Shown one piece after another: positions 26,510 through 63,553 of a stretch of DNA of 64,000 nucleotides. The notes beneath the pieces are model-generated. The model was not told where the DNA came from. It ran no database searches and saw only the letters and a list, made by a program, of their open reading frames with translations. Numbering within the stretch: position 1 is the first letter of the stretch; every line of letters starts with the position of its first letter. Source of the stretch: Batillaria attramentaria (lineage: Eukaryota > Mollusca > Gastropoda > Batillariidae). A program made the translations under genes and the position numbers. The DNA is taken from contig JACVVK020000323.1 in assembly GCA_018292915.2 (NCBI GenBank), positions 398,501-462,500 of the forward strand, read 5' to 3'.

Positions 26510-26653
26510 TTAAATGAATTGAGATTTTAAGTAAATGTCTTTCATCTTCAGCATCATTTTCTCGCGAAGTTTCTGCCGATCTTTTCGTTTCCCAAACTGA
26601 TAGTACCTTAGCAATTTCATTGGGACCGCCAGCACCATCATCATGACGATACA
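26510..26653 (-). CDS. 3' module exon c: TM5 and basic C-terminal tail
   Basis: Acceptor CTACTTACAG, phase 0, 47 codons and TAA. CIVMMMVLAVPMKLLRYYQF completes a hydrophobic helix ending in V-P-M-K-L-L, where polycystin TM5 ends in Q-P-L-K-V. A strongly basic, Met-rich tail follows (KRKDRQKLREKMMLKMKD) and the protein stops. AATAAA lies at 26423-26418 on this strand, about 90 nt after the stop. No channel exons are visible further on. Confidence 0.65.
   Translation of the reverse strand, partial: CIVMMMVLAVPMKLLRYYQFGKRKDRQKLREKMMLKMKDIYLKSQFI

Positions 26654-63553: not shown

Follow-up and report, generated by a model that had tools for sequence, protein, structure and literature searches.

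Polycystin-1 is usually discussed as an ectodomain together with a channel, and in the intact protein it is difficult to test what the part between them, with five transmembrane segments (TMs) and a PLAT domain, does by itself. PLAT domains are also found in LOXHD1-like proteins, which carry several of them in tandem. Proteins of the PKD1 family associate with TRP-type channels (PMC1934368, from the available part of that report). According to the same part of that source, SpREJ7 among the ten SpREJ proteins of the sea urchin has six TMs, SpREJ2 has two, SpREJ1, SpREJ8 and SpREJ9 have one each and SpREJ10 has none, and a GPS is present in nine of the ten (PMC1934368). Since these sea urchin members depart from the 11-TM layout, loss of the channel is already known in the PKD1 family.

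We analysed a stretch of 64,000 nucleotides from the snail Batillaria attramentaria, C323:398501-462500 (hereafter the window), and the subject of this study is a gene on its minus strand, gene A, which belongs to a tandem array on contig C323. Like polycystin-1 (PKD1; PDB 6a70, which we take to be the human protein) and the PKD1L proteins, gene A has a PLAT domain placed directly after TM1, five predicted TMs in the same order and a TM3-TM4 loop predicted to be cytosolic, and a TM4-TM5 register is common to polycystin-1, gene A and its paralogue B but absent from paralogue D. The array differs from these proteins in that neither GAIN/GPS nor the TM6-11 channel was found in it, and the TM2 motif is not kept. 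As GPS and channel were both searched for and not found, we filed gene A as a polycystin-1-derived relative and not as a member. A cluster of tandem PLATs in the same genome (C295:422861-476953), presumably a LOXHD1-like gene, shares the PLAT domain with the array and gave the best PLAT score among the compared loci; it differs in having many PLATs in a row (14 of the 35 PLAT matches of the assembly). Gene A showed a single PLAT stretch, flanked by TMs, within its first 450 residues, and not the several tandem PLATs of a LOXHD1-like protein. Among the open-access papers listed by our literature searches, none is on a five-TM PLAT protein that has a giant loop and neither GPS nor channel. SpREJ7 is also a PKD1-family member with six predicted TMs that stands outside SpREJ3-6, the members with a channel part; it differs in keeping a split REJ domain, PKD repeats and a GPS, and no giant loop is described for it in the available part of the source (PMC1934368).

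Gene model and protein layout

The coding part of gene A consists of 17 exons (60912..26510, minus strand), which are phase-consistent and encode 2217 aa from the ATG in exon E1. With an earlier first exon, E0, included, the 18 exons (63553..26510, minus strand) form a single open frame of 2245 aa, with phases consistent at 17 of 17 joints, and the remaining two frames of the spliced sequence contain 99 and 109 stops. All introns are GT-AG, except for the GC-AG intron 3' of E15. The features, in window positions, are as follows.

63477..63553, minus strand: E0, earlier first exon; phase-compatible, probably not coding, perhaps 5' UTR
60775..60912, minus strand: E1, start codon and TM1 (MSSKELF...YTFLVFAL...KKFH); from splicing, with an equivalent exon in B
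60479..60563, minus strand: E2, first PLAT strand (HEYIVAVKTSS); from splicing and the PLAT profile
60026..60172, minus strand: E3, PLAT core; from the PLAT profile, matched in paralogues B-E
57488..57557, minus strand: E4, PLAT (VDLGELQEIHF..., LG..L motif); from splicing and the PLAT profile
56416..56538, minus strand: E5, end of PLAT (W.LGYVEV) and linker; from splicing and the PLAT profile
53980..54103, minus strand: E6, linker up to TM2, and first part of TM2; from splicing and comparison with a deposited model
52479..52625, minus strand: E7, rest of TM2, and TM3; from splicing and comparison with a deposited model
50018..52089, minus strand: E8, end of TM3, conserved SSEGSSMAGYSSGYSTADEITSVPATTR block and lysine-rich repeats (57-base unit, 14.8 copies)
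46978..47236, minus strand: E9, conserved loop exon
42318..44516, minus strand: E10, large loop exon
40759..41316, minus strand: E11, conserved loop exon; six of its six assembly matches lie inside the array
36417..36548, minus strand: E12, loop
33598..33682, minus strand: E13, loop; its donor is read through in the deposited model P0001
32498..32610, minus strand: E14, loop (IRDGRAFVDSIRRDW)
31648..31699, minus strand: E15, loop; GC-AG donor (last exon base g, then gcaagt)
29205..29388, minus strand: E16, TM4
26510..26675, minus strand: E17, TM5 (WLSIYLQCIVMMMVLAVPMKLL), 32-residue basic tail and TAA stop; stop-ending equivalents in B and D
26418..26423, minus strand: AATAAA polyadenylation signal, located 86 bases past the stop of gene A

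Two deposited hypothetical proteins of Batillaria attramentaria, P0001 (BaRGS_00030198) and P0002 (BaRGS_00030201), both partial, lie on the same 794254-base contig, C323. P0001 matched E10-E13 and E15 of the window at 97.8-100% identity, and E14 at 88%, where splicing differs between both models. Because of these matches to E10-E15 we take P0001 to be a partial model of gene A. P0002 belongs to a neighbouring paralogue and has the equivalents of E6-E12 and of E14-E16 within one protein. The gene models of this snail were made with EVidenceModeler from ab initio, Trinity transcript and homology evidence (PMC10382545, from the available part of that report). The initial annotation had proposed a phase-consistent chain that runs from TM1 through PLAT, TM2, TM3 and a long polar loop to TM4 and TM5, and splicing bore this out at every joint. 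Its placing of the loop end and of TM4 and TM5 had to be corrected (the loop comprises E8-E15 and ends early in E16, which also encodes TM4; TM5 lies in E17). As judged from the sequence, the exon chain and the layout are almost certainly real.

The translation start needed a further correction, since the 48 residues proposed before TM1 found no support. In both A and B an in-frame stop stands six codons before the ATG of E1 (60912 in the window), and the probable start is thus about 19 residues before TM1, which would make the protein of gene A 2217 aa long. In gene A an acceptor is possible between this stop and the ATG, and it is the one used by the E0 joint. Exon E1 may include some 5' UTR ahead of its ATG. 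We rejected E0 as a first coding exon: in the alignment with the region upstream of paralogue B, neither its ATG nor its splice donor was present, and indels in the neighbouring conserved block break any frame. E0 is probably not coding, and is perhaps 5' UTR or no exon.

The PLAT domain of gene A (PF01477) scored 24.8 bits (cut-off, 23), and PLAT was matched in three of the five paralogue sequences (best E 2.4e-6). Pfam reported no PLAT in the raw ORFs and read-through frames, as the domain is split over four exons; P0001, P0002 and the remaining pieces scanned gave no PLAT either. A REJ domain, which most PKD1-family members have, was not reported by the Pfam scans of window pieces, a viral-contig scan found no relative of the E10 frame, and Rfam gave 0 matches at the gathering threshold. 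The PLAT module may have a lipid-sensing role.

As the initial annotation had expected, most of the protein is TM3-TM4 loop (about 1844 of the 2217 residues, 17% K/R), in comparison to about 200 residues in the C8 polycystin gene of the same snail. The 57-base repeat encodes its lysine-rich stretch. The block SSEGSSMAGYSSGYSTADEITSVPATTR is identical in A and C and has one difference in D (VSATTR). The structure prediction of P0001, which covers the loop, was unusable (mean pLDDT 29.6). The number of TMs proposed initially, five, agrees with the polycystin topology and the charge pattern; it is nevertheless an interpretation, because hydropathy also marks three loop stretches (1517-1535, 1569-1587 and 1817-1835 in the numbering of the 2245-aa model) that can be read as extra TMs. 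TM1, TM3, TM4 and TM5 carry positive charge at the end predicted to face inward, and TM2 was neutral. The N-terminus would lie outside the membrane, and PLAT and the loop inside.

Three other features of the window were noted. A 407-aa open frame with FADDIALL (1443-2666, plus strand) is presumably a retrotransposon reverse transcriptase, and an open frame at 17108-17404 (minus strand) that contains MPKECAAAECSEVQKKDSDLSFHYFPSD... has what we take to be a resemblance to a THAP zinc-finger domain. Low-complexity frames of the HYTPLATPLHPTCYTTT type (5261-5859, plus strand, and 6519-7187, minus strand) are apparently derived from a minisatellite.

GPS, channel and kinship to polycystin-1

Profile searches in which only the best candidates were scored gave 33 PKD_channel matches and 44 GPS matches in the assembly, and none of either on C323. 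The PLAT profile alone gave 35 matches in the assembly and likewise 0 on C323 despite the PLAT of gene A; as this four-exon domain escaped the profile, the same could happen to GPS or channel exons that are split or have diverged. Parts of C323 also read N, and exons there could escape detection. The ends of the gene are more telling. Where a six-TM channel would follow TM5, gene A has a TAA stop 32 residues past TM5 and then the AATAAA signal; the last exon of B stops after 36 residues and that of D after 38, and AATAAA also follows the stop of B. Where a GPS/GAIN region would precede TM1, the in-frame stop before the ATG stands in both A and B. For the channel, the conserved stop and the polyadenylation signal outweigh the profile negatives, as does the in-frame stop for the ectodomain. 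The initial view of a protein that ends early after TM5, with neither GAIN/GPS nor channel, is in agreement with these observations.

Gene A is probably derived from a polycystin-1-type ancestor. This kinship rests on PLAT after TM1, on the topology and the charge pattern, and on the TM4-TM5 register; overall similarity is not significant, and the kinship is not proved. The register, P-x36-WL-x15-P-x-K, is gapless in polycystin-1 of 6a70, in the C8 and C6 genes of Batillaria and in A and B, while paralogue D lacks it. It was derived from 6a70 and these two polycystin-1-like genes of Batillaria (C6 spliced by hand). In 238266 six-frame residues of a 264-kb stretch (frames of at least 40 aa), WL-x15-P-x-K was confined to E17 of A and B; this is suggestive evidence, since the pattern was noticed and chosen after seeing A and before testing. 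Polycystin-1 of 6a70 and the C8 gene align without gaps over TM4-TM5, and this stretch is itself insignificant (-3.8 bits).

The register columns were conserved at 5 of 15 in A, 6 of 15 in B and 3 of 15 in D, and these counts were reached by 390, 33 and 14387 of 20000 shuffles, respectively. The local TM4-TM5 score against polycystin-1 was reached by 249 (A), 34 (B) and 427 (D) of 1000 shuffles, and the gapless score by 107, 86 and 363 of 5000. For TM2-TM3, block shuffles reached the local score in 1583 of 2000 cases for A and in 534 of 2000 for C. Profile-profile comparison of the TMs was weak, and PDB searches with single pieces and with profiles matched no polycystin. The TM2 motif of polycystins (HLWLS..RP..FTR.QR in 6a70 and C8) was not seen in the array, which has YHP...R.GAYT..T. 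The end of TM3 reads LRNARP in C and D and LRNVRP in A and B, as against LFRKARP in the polycystin-1-like gene C11. When the PLAT profile of the array was compared with frames from 10 Batillaria loci, it scored best against PLAT of the tandem-PLAT cluster (30.0 bits) and reached 18.9 bits with the C8 polycystin, over half a domain (best background frame, 9.9). The PLAT intron layout of gene A differs from the part seen in the C8 polycystin.

The tandem array on contig C323

Assembly searches located five tandem paralogues, all on the minus strand of C323, in the order B, A (the window gene), C, D and E. The six E11 matches of the assembly correspond to these five genes and one partial extra copy, which adjoins the full E11 of paralogue B (C323:502302-502508, minus strand). 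Exon order is kept in B and, for the exons found, also in C, D and E; the last exon of C and much of E lie outside the sequence seen, and copy E is diverged and was found only in part. The search with an N-terminal query had a single row outside C323, a weak match (E 0.07) at C101:1012022-1012156 (minus strand) to the segment after TM3. A long (GT)n tract runs up to the E17 acceptor both in A (window 26675) and in B (C323:487244), and E5 of A, B and C likewise follows a (GT)n tract.

Protein searches of a 5.77-billion set returned Batillaria proteins only. The composite region 950-1400 gave two hits, P0001 and P0002, among 7998 scored candidates; an A+C profile gave the same two among 7995; and region 30-430 gave one hit among 3483, with no other species. 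Diverged relatives in other molluscs could escape these searches, since shared 5-residue words were required and length was limited.

We estimated dN/dS by the Nei-Gojobori method on the best tblastn stretches, leaving out exons that had none. Between A and B (1675 codons; E0 and E13 outside the count) dN was 0.098, dS 0.179 and dN/dS 0.55, and between A and C (833 codons; E0, E1, E4, E5, E7 and E13-E17 outside the count) the values were 0.315, 0.754 and 0.42. With dN/dS below 1 in both comparisons, the protein is under selection. The A-B dS was very uneven, being 0 in E2, 0.037 in E12 and 0.067 in E10 versus 0.69 in E1 and 0.65 in E17; its values in E1, E15 and E17 exceeded those in E8 and E10-E12 by a factor of about 4 to 18. 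This unevenness, with zero in E2 and low values in E8 and E10-E12, points to probable gene conversion. High A-B ratios in E3-E6, from PLAT to the start of TM2 (0.68-1.07), and in E14 (1.13) indicate that parts of the protein evolve fast. Leaving aside E1 and E2, the PLAT and TM exons had an A-B dN of 0.18-0.42, against 0.01-0.15 for the loop exons, a contrast that is clouded by the probable gene conversion of the loop exons.

Possible functions and rival explanations

The reading that we favour, and consider reasonably likely, is that gene A is one of five tandem genes for a five-TM PLAT protein that most likely derives from polycystin-1; we propose that this protein may act as a membrane scaffold. 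A polycystin-1-type ancestor would have lost its GAIN/GPS ectodomain and its six-TM channel, and the cytosolic TM3-TM4 loop would meanwhile have grown to its present length. The TM bundle and PLAT would anchor the protein and set its place at the inner leaflet, with both ends of the giant loop pinned to the membrane by this part, and the lysine-rich repeats and the conserved part of the loop might bind cytosolic or axonemal partners. On its own, such a five-TM PLAT protein would conduct no ions. We put forward this division of labour, with the TM/PLAT part as anchor and the loop as effector, tentatively and at somewhat less than an even chance. Expression in sperm or sensory cilia is a guess from the fast evolution and from PKD1-family biology.

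The main functional rival to the scaffold is a subunit acting in trans, in which the five-TM/PLAT protein packs against a separate polycystin-2- or polycystin-1-type channel, two chains doing the work of one. The genome does have separate polycystin channel genes (the 33 PKD_channel matches), and the available part of the sea urchin report describes both the association of the PKD1 family with TRP-type channels and members that have no channel part (PMC1934368). Between A and B, however, the PLAT and TM exons (save E2 and E1) change more than the loop exons, subject to the gene conversion that clouds this contrast, and we regard a trans-acting subunit as rather unlikely. We give similarly little weight to an independent origin, by which an unrelated protein with several TMs acquired PLAT behind its first TM and the likeness to polycystin is convergent. 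The weak TM similarity to polycystin-1, the best PLAT match with the tandem-PLAT cluster among the compared loci and the intron positions unlike the part seen of the C8 polycystin would all fit such an origin; against it stand the PLAT placement and topology as in polycystin-1, the exact register in A and B with no further WL-x15-P-x-K in the residues scanned, and a TM3 end that is near to that of the C11 gene.

Errors of the gene model would account for the layout if the chain merged exons of at least two genes, or if channel or GAIN exons had been missed. Both deposited models are partial, C323 has N stretches, and the profiles may have overlooked channel or GPS exons that are split or diverged, as they did the PLAT of this gene. 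Yet order, phases and the terminal stop are conserved in the paralogues, polyadenylation signals follow the stops of A and B, and P0002 joins TM2-TM3 to TM4 in one protein. That the PLAT exons and the large exons are separate genes, an objection raised with the initial annotation, is unlikely because the paralogues keep order and phases and P0002 connects TM2-TM3 with TM4, and we hold an artefact of either kind to be very improbable. Least credible of all are decaying remnants of polycystin-1 genes; fast evolution, missing domains and the diverged, partly found fifth copy might suggest decay, but the 2217-aa open frame, dN/dS below 1 and the splice sites and stops conserved in several copies speak against it.

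The array may represent a new animal protein family in which TM1-5 and PLAT of polycystin-1 serve alone as the membrane anchor of a giant regulatory loop, perhaps in sperm or sensory cilia, although we suggest this with even less assurance than the anchor and effector roles. The function of TM1-5 and PLAT of polycystin-1 would then be separable from ectodomain and channel, and would have been diversified by tandem duplication and gene conversion. A natural array that keeps only the five-TM/PLAT part and an enlarged loop would be a ready-made test object for this part. In this one snail, a PLAT membrane protein appears to be diversifying through tandem duplication and probable gene conversion.
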